Source: Falsiruegeria mediterranea M17
Lineage (GTDB): Bacteria; Pseudomonadota; Alphaproteobacteria; Rhodobacterales; Rhodobacteraceae
Assembly (NCBI RefSeq): GCF_900302455.1
Contig: NZ_ONZG01000006.1
Location: 248,001-312,000, forward strand
Length of the DNA: 64,000 nt
Direction: 5' to 3'
The notes under the pieces: generated by a model
Databases searched by the model: none
What the model was told of the DNA's origin: nothing
Seen by the model: only the letters and a program-made list of their open reading frames with translations
Made by a program: the position numbers and the translations under genes
Part shown: in pieces, positions 57,111 to 64,000 of the stretch
How the letters are laid out: each line of letters starts with the position of its first letter
Numbering within the stretch: the first letter of the stretch is position 1

Positions 57111-58169
57111 GGCTTTGTTGCACAAATCGGTTGAAGGGCAGACTTCCCCTTTCCCCGGACGGACTTATCGTGTGGACTCTGTGAGCGGTATGCCAAGAGC
57201 GGTGTAGCGGTTGCGCACGGCAATGCGAACTTGGATTTCTGCAACCTGACGGTCGAAGCCCCGCGCCATCAAGGATTGGCCCGGTCGCTTCACACAGTGC
57301 ATCTTGGTCTCGACGCGGCTCCTGCGGTGATATCCGCTCCACCGTTTCCAAATGGGTCGGCCAAGATAGCGCGAGGCATCAACTGCATCGTTCCATGCGA
57401 TGGCTCCGGCTGTAGTGGGTTTCTACGGTTTGGCGTTCTTGCGTGGCGGTATGACGTCATGGGCACCATGGGCACCATGGGCGGCAATCGCGTCATGGCA
57501 TTTGCGTGTGTCATATGCCCCGTCTGCGGTCACTGACCCGACGTCCTGATCGGGTGGGATTTGGTTCAGCAGCTCGGGCAGCACAGGTGCATCCCCAACA
57601 TTTCTGGTCGTGACCTCGACGGCCCGCACCTCCAGCGTTTCCTCGTCGATCCCTATGTGTATCTTGCGCCAGATGCGGCGTTTTGAGCCGCCGTGCTTGC
57701 GGGCGTTCCACTCGCCTTCTCCCTCGGATTTGATGCCCGTACTATCGATCAGCAGGTTCATCGGGCCGGTTCCACCGCGATAGGGTAGGTTCACGTTCAG
57801 TGTCTTTTGACGTCGGCTCAATGTGCTGAAATCCGGCGCAGCCCAATCCAGCCCCGCCATCCGCAACAGGCTCTGAACGAACCCTGTCGTCTGCCGAAGC
57901 GGCATTCTGCACAGCACTCTCAGGGTAAGGCACGTCTGGATCGCCGCATCACTGAAACTTTGTTGTCGGCCGCGTTTCCCGGTCGGCGGCGGCACCCAGA
58001 CCATCTCGGGGTCGAACCAAACCGATAGTGATCCGCGCTGTTTCAACGACTTGTTATACGACGGCCAATTCTTCGTCTTGTACTTCGTGGGTGAACAACT
58101 GTTCATGCATTCCAGCTATCATGCTGGTTTCACGCAATGAATCCCTCAGCCGATTTGTGCAACAAAGCC
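57111..58169 (-). mobile_element. IS5-family insertion sequence (inactivated)
   Basis: A 1059-bp element bounded by imperfect terminal inverted repeats. The left end reads GGCTTTGTTGCACAAATCGG and the right end, reverse complemented, starts with the same 20 bases; they then diverge slightly (TTGAAGGG against CTGAGGG). It encodes one IS5-type transposase on the minus strand, broken by a stop codon. I saw no target duplication at the junctions (left flank ends in cgac, right flank starts with cttt), so the element is old or one flank has been rearranged. It sits between nrdJ and the MFS/LysR/fused-enzyme cluster. Confidence 0.85.
57165..58106 (-). pseudogene. IS5-family transposase with in-frame TAG stop
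   Basis: A 313-codon transposase frame. It opens near the right end and contains RGSLSVWFDPEMVW, LLIDSTGIKSEGEGEW, GGSKRRIWRKIHIGID and GSVTADGAYDTRK, the DDE-type IS5 core. At 57423-57425 a TAG interrupts the frame where relatives have Trp (AKP-stop-KPTTAGA). After it the same frame continues in recognisable transposase sequence (RYLGRPIWKRWSGYH, RSRVETKMHC) to a TAA at 57165. The lost part holds the catalytic Glu region, so the product should be inactive. Just before the stop a 9-bp unit is duplicated (57458-57475), adding a Gly-Ala-His repeat. Confidence 0.85.
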
Positions 58170-58211
58170 CTTTCCAACCCAAATGTTCATTTCGCACGTT
58201 CTCAGCGTCCC

Positions 58212-58246
58212 TGTAAGCAACCCTTACGCGGTTTACGAACGTTTAC
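58212..58246 (+). promoter_or_regulatory. Probable LysR binding region upstream of MFS gene
   Basis: TGTAAGCAACCCTTACG (58212-58228) matches the perfect palindrome TGTAAGCATTGCTTACA of the LysR/fused-enzyme promoter at 13 of 17 positions, including both TGTAAGCA and TTAC arms. A second near-palindrome, GTTTACGAACGTTTAC, follows directly at 58231-58246. The MFS start is 35 bases further on. Confidence 0.5.
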
Positions 58247-58280
58247 CCCTTGGACACCATGGCGACCGGGAGGAACGTTC

Positions 58281-59678
58281 ATGACGCAAAAAGTAGGTTT
58301 GGGAGGTATTGTCTCATACGGCATCGGATCGATTGCATATGGGATCAAGGACAACGGGTTCTCCACTTTCCTGATGATCTATTTCAACCAAGTTTTGGGG
58401 CTTCCGGCTTATCTGGTTGGGATCGCCTTGTTGATCGCGATGTTGGTTGACGCAATTTCAGATCCCTGGGCCGGTTACTTGTCAGATCGTTGCACCTCTC
58501 GCTTGGGACGCAGACATCCGTTCATGTATGCCTCCATCGTGCCGATTGCGATCACCTATTACCTGCTTTGGACGCCGCCAGAGGCCAGCGAGTTCATGCT
58601 GTTTCTCTATCTGACGTTCATGTCGGTGGCGGTGCGTCTGACGCTCACCTTTTTTGAGATTCCCAACTCGGCGTTGATTGGTGAAATTTCTCATGACTAT
58701 GACAAGCGGACAGCCATCACCGGTTTGCGCCTTATGTTCGGATGGCTGGGTGGGGTCATCATGGCAGTGGTCGTCTATCAGGTGTTTTTGCCGGATTCAG
58801 TGGACTACGACCCGGGTATCCTGAACCCAGAAGGTTATACACGATACGCATTCTGGGCCACGTTGGTCATGGTAGTGACGATGTTTGTGTCTGCGGTTGG
58901 AACCCAACGGGCCGTCAAGGTTTTCAGCACTCCCGACACCAGCAGCGAAGGATACGGATTTCGATTTTTCAAGAACGTGGGGCATGTCTTTGCCGACAGT
59001 TCCTTTAGGTCTGTGTTTCTGGCATCGCTGTGCACCAACCTAGTGTCTGGCTTAGCCATGTCGCTGCAACTCTATTTTGGAATCTTCTATTTTGGCCTGA
59101 GTTCAACCCAGATCGCGCTTGTGACGCTGACGATGGTTCCTGCTGCGATCATCGCTTACTTGTCCACTGCATTTGTTGTGCGTGGTTTTGAAAAGAAATC
59201 TGTGGCTGTTACACTGAGCTGGATGGCTCTGGTGTTGTCGGTTTCACTGGTTGTTGGAAAGTACTTCGACGTGCTCCCAGCTCCGCGCAGCCCGGAATTG
59301 TTTTACGTGGTTGCCATCCTGACATTCCTGACGACAACCGTGACCGTACTTTTGAGCGCCGTGAAATTTTCGATGACGATTGATCTTGTAGACGCCGATC
59401 AGATCCGTACTGGCCACCGCGCCGAAGGGCTGTATTTTGCGGCGTTTTCGTTCACGCGCAAGGTTGTGACAGGCCTCGGGATATTTGTGTCGGGCGTCAT
59501 GCTGAGCTTGGGAGCGCAAAGCGGTCGGCTGATTGATGGCAGTACAATGCACTCCATTGCCATCCCCTATGTCGTACTGATCGCAGTGTTGTACGCCTAT
59601 TCTGTTTGGGTGCTGAAGGGGTTCAAACTGACCCGATCCGAACATGGCGATAACCTCCGAGCCCTCGGGAAAGGTTAA
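58281..59678 (+). CDS. GPH-family (MelB-like) MFS transporter, second copy
   Basis: 465-aa, about 12-segment transporter. LVDAISDPWAGYLSDRC near residue 60 and LGRRHPFMYASIVP parallel the transporter at 35462-36883; the two are paralogues of the GPH cation-symporter type. ATG at 58281 with GGGAGGA; the open frame upstream runs into the IS end and is not coding. It is convergent with the LysR gene (stops overlap by 4 bp). A shared LysR-type operator suggests it imports the substrate of, or exports the product of, the fused dehydrogenase/monooxygenase/esterase. Confidence 0.87.
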   Translation: MTQKVGLGGIVSYGIGSIAYGIKDNGFSTFLMIYFNQVLGLPAYLVGIALLIAMLVDAISDPWAGYLSDRCTSRLGRRHPFMYASIVPIAITYYLLWTPPEASEFMLFLYLTFMSVAVRLTLTFFEIPNSALIGEISHDYDKRTAITGLRLMFGWLGGVIMAVVVYQVFLPDSVDYDPGILNPEGYTRYAFWATLVMVVTMFVSAVGTQRAVKVFSTPDTSSEGYGFRFFKNVGHVFADSSFRSVFLASLCTNLVSGLAMSLQLYFGIFYFGLSSTQIALVTLTMVPAAIIAYLSTAFVVRGFEKKSVAVTLSWMALVLSVSLVVGKYFDVLPAPRSPELFYVVAILTFLTTTVTVLLSAVKFSMTIDLVDADQIRTGHRAEGLYFAAFSFTRKVVTGLGIFVSGVMLSLGAQSGRLIDGSTMHSIAIPYVVLIAVLYAYSVWVLKGFKLTRSEHGDNLRALGKG

Positions 59679-60622
59679 GGTTCACCTCGTGTGCGGCGCC
59701 GGAACACGGATTGATCCAACATGCGTTGCACTTCTGAGAGAAGCTGCTTGGCCGCTGGGGGCAGTGGACGTTCCCGCAGCCATGCGGCTACGCCGGATAT
59801 GGTGCTATCGTTGAACGGCCACCCTTGGACTTCGACTTTGCGCACTAGGCCTGTAGCGACCTCTTGATGAATTATGAACTCAGGCAGGATGGCCAATGCA
59901 TTGGTTCTTAACAGTAGCTGACGCAGCAAACCGAAATCCTGCGATGTCAGAAACGTACCGCGCAGATCTTGAAGCCCCGTGAAAGCGTCGGGATATGCAT
60001 CAAGAATGCGCCACAGGAACCAGTCTGGAACGTCTCCGCCAATGACCGACAGATGTCGCAGGTCGTTGATAAGAATAGTTGGTTTCGACAGCAAAGCGTG
60101 ATCAGACCGACAAAACAGAGCGGGCGGTTGCAAAACAAGCTTGCGATAGCTCAGCACGTCCTCCTCGCGATCCGGCTGAAGGCCAAGATACATGTCTATT
60201 TCGCGATTGCGCAGGCGCTTTTCCCATCTTGCGCGATTGCAGGAGAGGACCGTAAATTGCAACGATGGATGTTTGTTTATCATCTTGGCAAGAGGCAGGG
60301 AAAGCAGGCTTTCGCTGACTGCGGGATCCACTCCGATAACCAACCTGCCGCCTTGATGGCTCTCCATCAGCTGTAAATCGCGCGCTGCGGTATCCATGTC
60401 GTTTAGCGAGCGTCTGGCTGATTCGATTAGCCGTTCGCCAAAGGCCGTAGGCACGGTACGCCCTCGGGTACGATCAAACAATTCAACACCGTAGCTTTCT
60501 TCGAGCTTGCGAATTGTTTGGCTCACAGCCGAATGGGAAACACCTAAAGCCTCACCAGCCAAGCGAAAATTGCCAGTGTCACCAAGCGCAACAAGTTGCC
60601 TGAGAGGGTTAAGGCTGTCCAT
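59675..60622 (-). CDS. LysR family transcriptional regulator
   Basis: 315-aa LysR regulator. The helix-turn-helix reads FRLAGEALGVSHSAVSQTIR at about residues 19-38, and the effector domain starts near residue 90 (GGRLVIGVDPAVSESLL). It is divergent from the fused SDR-monooxygenase-esterase gene across 84 bp that contain a perfect 17-bp palindrome, the classic arrangement for a LysR regulator and its target. It overlaps the MFS gene stop. The likely inducer is an alcohol or ketone handled by the fused enzyme. Confidence 0.9.
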   Translation of the reverse strand: MDSLNPLRQLVALGDTGNFRLAGEALGVSHSAVSQTIRKLEESYGVELFDRTRGRTVPTAFGERLIESARRSLNDMDTAARDLQLMESHQGGRLVIGVDPAVSESLLSLPLAKMINKHPSLQFTVLSCNRARWEKRLRNREIDMYLGLQPDREEDVLSYRKLVLQPPALFCRSDHALLSKPTILINDLRHLSVIGGDVPDWFLWRILDAYPDAFTGLQDLRGTFLTSQDFGLLRQLLLRTNALAILPEFIIHQEVATGLVRKVEVQGWPFNDSTISGVAAWLRERPLPPAAKQLLSEVQRMLDQSVFRRRTRGEP

Positions 60623-60633
60623 TTGAATACCCC

Positions 60634-60650
60634 TGTAAGCATTGCTTACA
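60634..60650. promoter_or_regulatory. Perfect 17-bp palindrome in divergent LysR promoter
   Basis: TGTAAGCA-T-TGCTTACA: an 8-1-8 perfect palindrome, 12 bases before the LysR start and 57 before the fused-enzyme start. It contains the T-N11-A core expected for LysR proteins. A degenerate copy lies upstream of the MFS gene. Confidence 0.7.
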
Positions 60651-60706
60651 TTCTTTACAAGTTAGGTTAGCAGGTCAAACTTTGCATTGTGAGCAGAGGA
60701 TGATTT

Positions 60707-63700
60707 ATGGAATTCGAAGGTAAAGTCGCATTTGTCACTGGGGGGGCGAATGGCATCGGTTTGGCGATTGCCAATTCGTTGGGTCGGCGTGGCATGTGCG
60801 TCATGATTGCGGACATCGACAGCGACACATTGGTCCAAAGCTGTGCAAAGCTTTGCGATAAGGGCATCGATGCAGCTTGGGTGAAATGTGATGTCTCGGA
60901 CCCGGCATCGGTGAAGAAGGCCGTCGAAGCTACTCTCGAACGATTTGGCAAAGTTCATTTCCTGGCGAATAACGCTGGTGTGTCCTTGGGGGGAGAGACA
61001 GGAACAATTCCCATCGAAGACTGGAATTGGATTCTTGGCATCAACTTGATGGGCGCAGTGCATTGCACCGAAGCATTGGTCCCCGTGTTCAAAACGCAAA
61101 GCGAGGGCGGCTTTATCTTGAACACTGCGTCCATGGCAGGGCACCTCGCCTTGCCCGGCGGTGGCCCCTACAATGCATCAAAGTTTGGTCTGGTTGGATA
61201 TAGCGAGGCACTGCGTCAGGAATTTGCGTCTACCGACATCGGCGTCGGCCTGTTGTGCCCCGGATGGGTGCGCACAGATATTCATAAAAGTGCCCAAGGA
61301 AGCCCGTCGAAAAAAGAGAGTGAAGTCCCTCGTGAACAAACGGAGCAGGACCGGCAGGTGGCTGCCGCGATTGATGCGGGACTGGAGCCGGACGTCGTCG
61401 CCGAGTGGGCCCTGGATCAGATCGACAAAGGGCGTTTTTACATCTTCACACAAGCCGATCTTGCGCCTTTCGTTGCAGGGCGGTTCTCCGAGATCGAGAC
61501 CGATTTGCAAGCAAGCGCAGCCATCGAAGACTATGCGCTTGAGCACGCCATTGGGGTCGGCCAGGAACCGTTGGACGTGGCCGTTATCGGCGCAGGTTTT
61601 TCCGGAATCTGCGCGGCAATCAAACTGCAAGAAAGTGGCATCGTTAACTTTCGCGTCTTTGAAAAAAGCGATGGTCTTGGCGGCACTTGGTGGCACAACC
61701 GCTATCCGGGGGCAGCCTGTGACATCCCCTCGCACTTCTATTGCTACTCTTTCGAGATGAACCCCGACTGGAGCCGTTTCTATGCACCGCAGAAAGAGAT
61801 ACAGTCCTATATCCAACATTGCGCCGAAAAGTATGGCGTGCGGGATCGGATAAGCCTGAAGTGCGAGATCACCGAGCTTCAATTTGACGAAACCAGCTCG
61901 CTGTGGATCGTTCGTTTTGAAGACGGATCAGAAGTTCGTGCTCGCTTTGTCGTAAATGCGACCGGTGGGCTGCACAAGCCGTTCATTCCCAATTTCCCCG
62001 GACGCGAGAAATTTGACGGCGTCGAAATGCACACGGCGGAATGGGACGAGAATTTTGATCCTACCGGCAAGCGTATTGCTGTCATCGGAAGCGCAGCAAG
62101 CGCAATTCAAGCAGTTCCCCAATTGGCTCAGACCGCAGAGCATGTCACGCTATATCAGCGCACGCCCAACTACATCGCGGCGCGCGAAGATTTTGGGTAC
62201 TCCGACGAGGAAAAACACAGCTTCCGCAGAGATCCTTCGAAAATGCAGGCGGTTCGGAAGGAACAGTTCGAAGACAAGGACACCCGGCTTTACCCGATTG
62301 TCGTAAGTCCCGCGATCCGCAAGATTGCCGAAGCTGAAATCAAAGCGCACATGCGTTCGCAGATCAACGATCCAGCCCTCGCTGACAAGCTGATGCCAAA
62401 TTACGAACTTGGCTGTAAGCGCATCCTGATCTCGGACGACTTCCTGCCCGCGCTCAATCGCTCCAACGTAACACTTGAAACCGCCCCAATCACGGCAATT
62501 GAATCGGCTGGTGTCAAAACCGAAGAGGCGCTGGCGCCGGTGGATGCGATCATCTATGCGACGGGGTTTGATATCGAAGGGCAGCGGTCTGCCTTCCGCG
62601 TGATAGGGCAGAACGGCCGCTCGTTGGAAGACATCTGGCAGTCACGCGCTGACGCCTATAAATCCAGCATGGTTCCTGACTTGCCGAACTATTTCCTGGT
62701 GACTGGTCCCAACTCCGGTGTCGGCACCACTTCGGTTGTTTATCTGATCGAACAATCCGTGGACTGGATCGTTGACGTTATGAAATTGGCAGGGCGTGAT
62801 CGCTTGGTTTCGGTGAGTGATGAGACTTGCCATAAGTTCAGTGACACATTGCAATCGCAGTTGGACAACACCGTTTGGGCGTCCGGGTGTGATAGCTGGT
62901 ACATCGGTTCAAATGGCCGCATCGAAACTCTTTTTCCGGGCAATGCACGGGATTTTGCAAACCAGATGAGCCATGTGGACGAGGCAGAGTTTGTTCTGAC
63001 CGAACTTGCATCCAACAAAGGCAAACCACCCCGCAACTGGACGGCCAGAAGGCAAGCAGGCAAAGATCCGACACCAGCACGTAAATTGGATCCCACAATC
63101 GGGACGATCCTGTCATCTCCGGACGCCAAGAATGGCCCCAAGATGCAAGAGATGTCTGCCCCGGATGCCCGTGCATTGTTCTCTGCGATGGTTGAAAGAC
63201 TGGAAGCTCCGATCTCAATCCCATGCGCCATTGAAGACGGGGCCATGGAGCTTGAAGGCCGAACCCTGAACTACCGGGTCTACAGGCCCGCCGAGGCGAG
63301 TCCCGAGGCGGCCGGAATGGTGTTCTTTCATGGTGGCGGATGGGTGATCGGGGATCTGGACACTCATGACAATGCCTGCCGCGCACTTGCGATTGGAAGC
63401 GGCGTTACGCTGATTTCCGTGGACTACCGCCGCGCGCCGGAATTCAAATTCCCTGCGCCCGTCGAAGACGCCCGGGATGCATATCTCTGGGTGGTTCAAA
63501 ACGCAGCCGCACTTGGCCTTGATCCAACGCGCATTGGCGTAGGAGGTGACTCCGCCGGCGCGAACCTATCAGCAGTGACTGCTCAGTTGTTGCGTGACGC
63601 AGACGGTCCGAAATGTGCCTGGAGTGCGTTGATCTATCCTTCTGTTGCTGCGGGGTATGAAACACCATCGTCCATCGAGTTTGCCGAAGGTTTTGGGTTG

Positions 63701-64000
63701 GATGCAGCGTTGCAGGATTGGTTTGCGCGCCATTACATCCCCGAAGGCGTCGATTGGGAAGACCCGCGAATTTCACCGCTACGGGCTGTAACTCACGCAA
63801 ACCTGCCGCCCGCATTGATTGCGACAGCCGGTTTTGATCCATTGCGCGACGCAGGGCAGGAATTTGCCACCGCACTAAGGGATGCGGGCGTGTCAGTAGA
63901 TTACGTCGAATACAGCAGCCTAATCCACGGCTTCAAAAGCTGGGTTGGCATTATTCCGGACGCCGCTGCGGCCTTACACGACATTGCTGAACGCATAGGG
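60707..64000 (+). CDS. Three-domain fusion: short-chain dehydrogenase, Baeyer-Villiger monooxygenase and HSL-family esterase (partial at right edge)
   Basis: One frame runs from the ATG at 60707 (GAGGA upstream) to the window edge, 1098 codons without a stop. Domain 1 (about residues 1-270) is a short-chain dehydrogenase: TGGANGIG, NNAG at 88-91, Ser142, Tyr155, Lys159. Domain 2 (about 285-800) is a type I Baeyer-Villiger monooxygenase: GAGFSG at 295-300, GGTWWHNRYPGAACD, the fingerprint FDGVEMHTAEWD at 436-447, and the second Rossmann GSAAS at 461. Domain 3 (from about 840) is a hormone-sensitive-lipase-type esterase: HGGGW at 875, GDSAG with Ser949, Asp1044, and His1074 in IHGF. All triads are complete. 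Only a few C-terminal residues should be missing. The logical reaction is alcohol to ketone to ester/lactone to hydroxy acid. Confidence 0.92.
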   Translation, partial: MEFEGKVAFVTGGANGIGLAIANSLGRRGMCVMIADIDSDTLVQSCAKLCDKGIDAAWVKCDVSDPASVKKAVEATLERFGKVHFLANNAGVSLGGETGTIPIEDWNWILGINLMGAVHCTEALVPVFKTQSEGGFILNTASMAGHLALPGGGPYNASKFGLVGYSEALRQEFASTDIGVGLLCPGWVRTDIHKSAQGSPSKKESEVPREQTEQDRQVAAAIDAGLEPDVVAEWALDQIDKGRFYIFTQADLAPFVAGRFSEIETDLQASAAIEDYALEHAIGVGQEPLDVAVIGAGFSGICAAIKLQESGIVNFRVFEKSDGLGGTWWHNRYPGAACDIPSHFYCYSFEMNPDWSRFYAPQKEIQSYIQHCAEKYGVRDRISLKCEITELQFDETSSLWIVRFEDGSEVRARFVVNATGGLHKPFIPNFPGREKFDGVEMHTAEWDENFDPTGKRIAVIGSAASAIQAVPQLAQTAEHVTLYQRTPNYIAAREDFGYSDEEKHSFRRDPSKMQAVRKEQFEDKDTRLYPIVVSPAIRKIAEAEIKAHMRSQINDPALADKLMPNYELGCKRILISDDFLPALNRSNVTLETAPITAIESAGVKTEEALAPVDAIIYATGFDIEGQRSAFRVIGQNGRSLEDIWQSRADAYKSSMVPDLPNYFLVTGPNSGVGTTSVVYLIEQSVDWIVDVMKLAGRDRLVSVSDETCHKFSDTLQSQLDNTVWASGCDSWYIGSNGRIETLFPGNARDFANQMSHVDEAEFVLTELASNKGKPPRNWTARRQAGKDPTPARKLDPTIGTILSSPDAKNGPKMQEMSAPDARALFSAMVERLEAPISIPCAIEDGAMELEGRTLNYRVYRPAEASPEAAGMVFFHGGGWVIGDLDTHDNACRALAIGSGVTLISVDYRRAPEFKFPAPVEDARDAYLWVVQNAAALGLDPTRIGVGGDSAGANLSAVTAQLLRDADGPKCAWSALIYPSVAAGYETPSSIEFAEGFGLDAALQDWFARHYIPEGVDWEDPRISPLRAVTHANLPPALIATAGFDPLRDAGQEFATALRDAGVSVDYVEYSSLIHGFKSWVGIIPDAAAALHDIAERIG

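Follow-up and report, generated by a model that had tools for sequence, protein, structure and literature searches.

A conserved protein of Falsiruegeria mediterranea that joins short-chain dehydrogenase, Baeyer-Villiger monooxygenase-like and esterase domains in one reading frame

INTRODUCTION

Can an alcohol-oxidizing enzyme, a Baeyer-Villiger monooxygenase (BVMO) and an esterase that act one after another be carried by a single natural protein? The question is raised by a gene at the right-hand end of a 64,000-nucleotide stretch of the genome of the marine bacterium Falsiruegeria mediterranea M17 (contig NZ_ONZG01000006.1, positions 248,001 to 312,000; hereafter the window, with positions counted from its first letter). 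The predicted product consists of a short-chain dehydrogenase/reductase (SDR), a type I BVMO-like domain and a hydrolase of the hormone-sensitive lipase (HSL) family. In the cyclohexanol pathway, the SDR ChnA, the BVMO ChnB and the lactone hydrolase ChnC act in this order and are encoded by separate genes. An initial annotation proposed that the fusion channels its intermediates through all three steps, that it cycles NADP(H) between its first two domains, that it may shield the cell from a reactive ester and that no characterized enzyme is known to have the same three domains. From the comparisons of sequences described below, we consider it probable (roughly 0.7) that the gene encodes a natural trifunctional catabolic enzyme that would convert an alcohol, by way of a ketone and an ester or lactone, to an acid.

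RESULTS

The fusion gene starts with an ATG at position 60707 on the forward strand and, in the reading frames of the window, is open to the window's end (60707 to 64000). The single frame of 1098 codons described initially is continuous but too short, as the real gene runs on for 102 bases beyond the window to a stop codon at window-equivalent positions 64100 to 64102 of the contig, giving 1131 codons plus the stop and a protein of 1131 amino acids. A Pfam search placed adh_short at residues 6 to 196, FMO-like at 291 to 499, Pyr_redox_3 at 293 to 495 and Abhydrolase_3 at 871 to 1076 and, together with matches to solved structures in the PDB, confirmed that one frame holds three enzyme domains. 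All parts lie on the forward strand. Domain 1, a classical SDR recognized by Pfam, PDB matches and its motifs, covers residues 1 to 272 (60707 to 61522) and is followed by a first joint at residues 273 to 288 (61523 to 61570), which we placed by alignment with a second genome and by the gene junctions of relatives; its position corresponds to the stop and start between their adjacent SDR and BVMO genes. Domain 2, the type I BVMO-like part (residues 289 to 772; 61571 to 63022), was assigned from Pfam, PDB matches and a 70-row alignment. A more variable linker of 21 codons, the second joint (residues 773 to 793; 63023 to 63085), leads to domain 3, the HSL-family hydrolase (residues 794 to 1097; 63086 to 63997), for which Pfam, NCBIfam and the PDB gave matches.

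Between species the three domains are kept in one frame. Tropicibacter sp. Alg240-R139 (genome G001, locus L004), which belongs to the same genus group as the window genome (G000), encodes a counterpart that is 86% identical, has 1110 residues and aligns without a single internal gap across 1110 codons; its tail is 21 residues shorter. The ratio of nonsynonymous to synonymous substitution rates (dN/dS) between the two copies was 0.078 for the SDR, 0.110 for the BVMO and 0.095 for the hydrolase, at an overall dS of 0.71; for the first joint it was 0.088 (16 codons) and for the second 0.44 (21 codons). An assembly or frameshift error that united adjacent genes would fit the finding that the parts exist as neighboring genes in relatives. 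However, the independent second genome keeps the frame intact, and a third genome (G1275, described below) has the first two domains in a single frame. Because of the gap-free, 86% identical copy and the dN/dS of about 0.1 in each domain, we conclude that the fusion is not an artifact, an explanation to which we give practically no weight; the same copy rules out a frame error at the domain joints (61400 to 61560 and 62880 to 63220), where one had been thought conceivable.

The catalytic residues named in the initial annotation (S142, Y155, K159, the fingerprint at 436 to 447, S949, D1044 and H1074) were all found in their places. Classical SDRs are marked by a TGxxxGxG coenzyme motif, an NNAG motif and a catalytic S-Y-xxx-K set, and domain 1 has TGGANGIG at residues 11 to 18, NNAG at 88 to 91, S142, Y155 and K159. 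It matched PF00106 with an E value of 6e-48, and its best solved relatives were PDB entries 5ig2, 3ioy and the C-alpha-dehydrogenase 4ya6. In domain 2, the type I BVMO fingerprint FxGxxxHxxxW[P/D] is matched by FDGVEMHTAEWD at residues 436 to 447 and the second fingerprint, [A/G]GxWxxxx[F/Y]P[G/M]xxxD, by GGTWWHNRYPGAACD at 325 to 339; the first Rossmann motif, for FAD, follows the pattern GxGxx[GA] with GAGFSG at 295 to 300, where G295, G297 and G300 occur in 70 of 70 aligned BVMO rows (all three patterns as given in PMC6058054). Steroid, cyclohexanone and phenylacetone monooxygenases were the PDB matches of this domain. The active-site residues R572 and D339, which align with those of solved BVMOs and are present in 70 of 70 rows, are the equivalents of R337 and D66 of phenylacetone monooxygenase. 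Enzymes of the HSL group, or esterase family IV, have an HGGG oxyanion motif, a GDSAG nucleophile motif, an Asp and a His; domain 3 has HGGGW at 875, GDSAG at 947 with S949, D1044 and H1074. It matched PF07859 (E value of 1e-67) and the EST2 structures 1evq and 1qz3, and it scored 314 bits against the NCBIfam model LipP1, below the model's cut-off of 350.

In SDRs an Asp at the end of strand beta-2 indicates NAD and basic residues indicate NADP. Domain 1 has Asp36 at this position, and residues 15, 37 and 38 are nonbasic in all three fusion copies, which suggests a site resembling that of NAD(H) enzymes. In the BVMO domain, R485 is invariant in 70 of 70 rows and position 571 is Lys in 68 of 70; we take R485 and K571 to be the ligands of the NADPH phosphate in relatives, and their presence suggests that this domain is suited to NADPH. 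An internal NADP(H) cycle between the two domains, as originally proposed, is therefore unlikely.

A sister of the fusion was found in another genus. In genome G1275, from a family sample of 394 genomes, an SDR and a BVMO lie in one frame (L121, 9074 to 12595) that encodes a protein of 1174 amino acids. Comparison by blastp gave 54% identity to the window fusion, aligned over residues 3 to 771 only, and no similarity between the third domains. That of G1275 (residues 806 to 1152) belongs to PF00144, which has the beta-lactamase fold, and is nearest to the solved carboxylesterases 8j5v and 5gmx and the fenoxaprop-p-ethyl hydrolase 7y3z; we take it to be a family VIII esterase. The three fusions form one clade in the BVMO tree (support 100/98). 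The two architectures are alike in the SDR-BVMO part, in the accompanying LysR, MFS and DUF2147 genes and in an operator-like site, and they differ in the third domain, which in G1275 has a beta-lactamase fold instead of an alpha/beta hydrolase fold. We know of no annotation or assay of the G1275 protein. These sequences are most simply explained by a single joining of SDR and BVMO and by unrelated esterases entering the third place on two occasions, or one replacing another there. As two unrelated esterase types occupy the same slot, domain 3 would be expected to split the product of the BVMO, and the domain replacement is the best evidence here for such a role.

The neighbors of the G1275 fusion bear on whether the protein is catabolic. 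On its flanks are genes for a CoA ligase, acyl-CoA dehydrogenases, an SDR, a thiolase, a nitronate-monooxygenase-like protein, an enoyl-CoA hydratase, MaoC, an iron alcohol dehydrogenase, a thioesterase, a FadL/TodX-type outer membrane protein and both subunits of the electron-transfer flavoprotein. Judged by their predicted functions, these are what a cell would need for burning the acid and the alcohol freed from the ester of a hydrophobic ketone. Flavin-containing monooxygenases and BVMOs are promiscuous enzymes, and the fusion might instead modify or detoxify a single metabolite or xenobiotic, for example by N- or S-oxygenation and deacylation. A prodrug is reported to be bioactivated by the Mycobacterium tuberculosis enzyme MymA (PMC13234193), and in the window's genus the block with the fusion is small and lacks beta-oxidation genes. 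We nevertheless consider detoxification unlikely, given that the G1275 fusion sits in a beta-oxidation cluster with electron-transfer flavoprotein and FadL/TodX-type genes and that D339, R572 and both published type I fingerprints are retained.

The fusion was rare among the genomes searched. With an HSL-type third domain it occurred in two, the window genome and Tropicibacter sp. Alg240-R139 (2/61 in one sample and two of the four genomes of the genus, the other two being without it), and only the window genome carried this form in samples of 390, 385, 398 and 394 genomes. The form with a beta-lactamase-fold third domain occurred in G1275 alone, in the family sample of 394. These samples overlap, with the window genome in each, their E-value cut-offs differ, and the genus of G1275 consists of one genome. 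That the fusion might be unique to the window genome is refuted by Tropicibacter sp. Alg240-R139 and, in the family sample, by G1275. Other phyla were covered through plasmid records and a pattern scan with a reach limited to close relatives. No SDR and BVMO shared a frame in the seven plasmid matches opened (H1, H2, H3, H10, H11, H19 and H30, out of 40 and 15 listed), and the trio was present as separate genes in plasmid records of Rubrobacter (two), Burkholderia multivorans, Acinetobacter and Nocardia, which had been chosen for matching all three domains. In the literature searched, which included few subscription journals, we found neither a characterized three-domain enzyme nor any natural SDR-BVMO-esterase or BVMO-esterase fusion; the claim that none has been characterized holds to that extent, but the architecture itself is present in two further genomes, in one of them with another type of esterase.

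Unfused relatives were examined at 39 BVMO-like loci, which were selected among the search matches by score or long frame and opened with wide flanks. A same-strand SDR lay within 3 kb in 18 of them, a same-strand HSL-type hydrolase in 9 and both in 8, while 3 had a beta-lactamase-fold neighbor instead. Matches to SDRs on either strand numbered 21 in 231.7 kb near the BVMO genes versus 3 in 224.7 kb farther out, and hydrolase matches numbered 10 versus 0 in the same lengths of DNA. The clusters with the trio and the G1275 sister fusion strengthen the view that the activities of the three domains follow one another in known pathways, where separate genes encode them. Genes for beta-lactamase-fold, esterase-like proteins were also seen next to unfused BVMO genes (L117, 3333 to 4607, reverse strand; L113; L114), and an esterase of this fold may therefore partner a BVMO outside the fusion too.

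Two-domain frames were seen at two loci. In Burkholderia cenocepacia (L051, 3866 to 6406, forward strand, 847 amino acids), Abhydrolase_3 follows the BVMO, and in G1009 (L108, 5420 to 8239, reverse strand, 940 amino acids) it precedes it. Both frames resemble the fusion in combining a BVMO with Abhydrolase_3, but they have no SDR, belong to other branches of the BVMO tree and, in L108, have the hydrolase first. Five other long frames, L055 (744 amino acids), L072 (817), L073 (1239), L076 (838) and L106 (1069), were rejected as fusions; each held only one of the three domains, the remaining domains being absent or in other frames. The two-domain frames, which occur in both orders without an SDR match nearby, are what would be expected if the true pathway were BVMO plus esterase and the SDR of the fusion were a reductase, or acted on another substrate, and had been joined for historical reasons only. 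This we regard as improbable, since the SDR has the lowest dN/dS of the three domains (0.078) and intact catalytic residues, and its NAD-type site would suit oxidation.

The gene arrangements of close relatives suggest how the fusion may have arisen. In the clade that is sister to the fusions, the BVMO gene of G196 (L054) has its ATG 4 bases after the SDR stop codon and that of G1206 (L122) 0 bases after it; one fork farther out, in G640 (L057), the SDR and BVMO genes overlap by 4. Identity to the fusion SDR is 46% for the SDR of L054 and 45% for that of L057. On the flanks of L057 are a divergent LysR gene (product 45% identical to that of the window), an MFS_1 transporter gene and an alpha/beta hydrolase gene of another family. 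The SDR tree was poorly resolved, with only one starred branch, and was not used. We infer that the fusion arose by the joining of a BVMO gene to an SDR gene, of the kind that lie side by side in some relatives, and by capture of an esterase; in two lineages, esterases of two unrelated types occupy the identical third position.

Sharing of a polypeptide need not mean that the domains cooperate. In a narrower form of the catabolic reading, the fusion merely fixes equal expression of the three steps, and the intermediates diffuse, with no channeling or recycling of cofactor. Several relatives encode the trio in separate genes, no part of the protein varies more than the second joint (dN/dS of 0.44), the SDR appears to be of the NAD type and the BVMO of the NADPH type, and the fold of the third domain differs between the fusions, which argues against a tuned interface of domains 2 and 3. 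On the other side are the strong purifying selection on the fusion over a dS of 0.71 and the first joint, whose 16 codons are constrained like the domains, although neither separates channeling from coexpression. We give the coexpression form about an even chance. The more ambitious proposal, a natural one-protein machine for C-C cleavage of secondary alcohols in which each site hands the ketone or ester on to the next and two unrelated esterase folds came independently to fill the third slot, in a convergent assembly from an operon, we put forward only tentatively.

The fusion gene is part of a small block shared by the two genomes with the HSL-type form. When L004 (19.3 kb) was compared with the window and the rest of its contig, the sole blastn match was a block of 6350 bp, 84.8% identical and equivalent to window positions 58182 to 64529, which in both genomes contains MFS, LysR, fusion and DUF2147 genes; because only these 6350 bp match, the block occupies different surroundings in the two genomes. 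The LysR-type regulator gene (59675 to 60622, reverse strand) is divergent from the fusion gene and 84 bp away from it, and its product is 89% identical to that of the second genome, 58% to that of G1275 and 45% to that of G640. The MFS_2 transporter gene (58278 to 59678, forward strand) has counterparts with 94% identity in the second genome and 59% in G1275, where the copy scores below the cut-off of the GPH model. Its longest frame begins at 58137, with the first 47 codons preceding the conserved start. The small DUF2147 gene lies just past the window's end (G000:C24, 312095 to 312487; L003, 95 to 487) and overlaps the fusion stop codon in the window genome. As it is also present in the L004 block and in the G1275 cluster (L132, 601 to 984, 50% identical), it probably belongs to the system. 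Directly to the left of the MFS-LysR-fusion block is a transposase gene (57423 to 58106, reverse strand; DDE_Tnp_1_5, DDE_Tnp_1), which we take to be of the IS5 type. Farther along the contig, to the right of the window (L003, 1061 to 8203), genes for a thiamine pyrophosphate enzyme, an enoyl-CoA hydratase, an aldehyde dehydrogenase, an AMP-binding ligase and a GCV_T-type protein follow one another in what looks like another catabolic cluster; a tetrahydrofolate-dependent demethylation route would be a guess.

Within the block, an operator-like sequence is repeated. One site, GTAAGCANNNCTTACNNNNTTTAC, with the perfect 17-bp palindrome TGTAAGCATTGCTTACA inside it, lies between the LysR and fusion genes (60635 to 60658, forward strand), and a second, found as a pattern match, lies upstream of the MFS gene (58213 to 58236, forward strand); the sequence before the fusion gene reads GTAAGCATTGCTTACATTCTTTAC and that before the MFS gene GTAAGCAACCCTTACGCGGTTTAC. 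We scanned genomes with this pattern (17 fixed bases), allowing up to 2 mismatches and using the pattern read backward as the control. The window genome and Tropicibacter sp. Alg240-R139 each had two sites, one before the MFS gene and one before the fusion gene, all of them exact, where an equal-base estimate predicts 0.0006 exact matches per genome by chance. The control gave 0 matches in the window genome, 1 in Tropicibacter sp. Alg240-R139, 2 in G1275 and 1 in G196, with about 0.8 per genome expected on the same simple estimate, and with up to 2 mismatches the forward pattern had no match in G002, G003, G196, G137 or G640. In G1275, a site that differs from the pattern by 2 mismatches was accepted because of its position, about 45 bp upstream of the fusion start. 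LysR operators follow a T-N11-A rule, and the sites fit a LysR operator that would serve both the fusion and the MFS genes. Another G1275 site with 2 mismatches (L132, 7995 to 8018), near the chance level, lies about 80 bp before the FadL/TodX-type gene (frame from 8084, with the ATG likely slightly later); it is only suggestive of a wider LysR regulon. A related palindrome, GTAAGTATTTCTTAC, was spotted by eye between the LysR and SDR genes of L057.

DISCUSSION

In the route that we favor, domain 1 would turn a secondary (or cyclic) alcohol into a ketone by oxidation, domain 2 would insert an oxygen beside the carbonyl group, yielding an ester or lactone, and domain 3 would hydrolyze this to an acid and an alcohol (or a hydroxy acid) bound for beta-oxidation. 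The LysR regulator would read one operator before the fusion gene and one before the transporter gene. A secondary alcohol or a ketone, hydrophobic and either open-chain or cyclic, is the probable substrate.

Several observations weigh against this interpretation. The SDR and BVMO domains appear to require different coenzymes, so that the protein would not be redox self-sufficient. The second Rossmann motif of the BVMO domain, for NADPH, is GSAASA (residues 461 to 466; window positions 62087 to 62104) and departs from GxGxx[GA] in having Ala for the second Gly, for which reason we call the domain type I BVMO-like; the GxAxxA variant occurs in 15 of the 70 aligned rows, two fusions among them. 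At 17 of the 39 loci there was, within 3 kb, no same-strand SDR or HSL-type match and no beta-lactamase-fold match on either strand; on the other strand, a hydrolase lay at L116 and an SDR at L064 and at L072. In the sister clade, no SDR match lies close to the BVMO gene of G137 (L055), and L122 has an SDR that is no more than a distant relative of the fusion SDR (E value of 9e-18). Neither of the two operator-like sites in the window genome adjoins a beta-oxidation gene. Finally, an AlphaFold2 model of the whole protein, built from a 17-row alignment, was confident only for the BVMO at about residues 290 to 768, with a mean predicted local distance difference test score of 59 and a predicted template-modeling score of 0.50, and gives no basis for the packing of the domains. 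An alignment of 46 rows was dropped for this purpose, as its single-domain rows were misplaced (SDR rows 13 to 16% and hydrolase rows 8 to 13% identical); in a separate SDR alignment, the SDR rows were 29 to 47% identical to the fusion SDR.

The proposed order of reactions has parallels in known systems. Solved cyclohexanone monooxygenases match the BVMO domain of the fusion, and the likeness to ChnA and ChnC is drawn from their activities. An alcohol dehydrogenase, a BVMO and an esterase cleave the carbon chain in that order in the n-C28 route of Thalassolituus oleivorans (PMC6304351), and the sad gene cluster cleaves 2-ketones with the BVMO SadD and the esterases SadA and SadB (PMC12753306). 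These subterminal alkane and ketone routes share the order of activities with the fusion, but they use separate proteins where the fusion is one polypeptide, and SadD is compared by activity, not orthology. In Mycobacterium tuberculosis, the mymA operon has consecutive genes for an FAD monooxygenase, an acetylhydrolase and an annotated dehydrogenase (Rv3083-Rv3084 [lipR]-Rv3085); its genes are separate, unlike the domains of the fusion, and the role described for it is in the cell envelope and lipid metabolism (PMC6018540). By description, not by sequence, its gene order is that of the unfused BVMO-hydrolase-SDR clusters L049, L053, L056 and L059. In this comparison Rv3085 is counted as an SDR, and LipR is placed in the HSL group.

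Each activity, and the order in which they act, is already known; the literature searched contained no account of the three in one protein, of the conservation of such a protein or of an exchangeable third domain. Cascades of an alcohol dehydrogenase, a BVMO and a lipase or esterase have been built artificially, for example against pretreated polyethylene (PMC12753306), and engineers fuse BVMOs to coenzyme-regenerating enzymes (PMC6058054). A natural, conserved three-domain version and its domain-swapped sister are ready-made proteins with which to ask if fusion raises flux or shields the labile intermediates, and setting the window fusion against that of G1275 narrows what the third step can be. 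Through the fusion, by the Rosetta stone argument, the unfused SDR-BVMO-hydrolase neighborhoods would be tied to one pathway, and the exchange of an HSL-type for a beta-lactamase-fold domain suggests that nature has built this reaction chain into a single protein.

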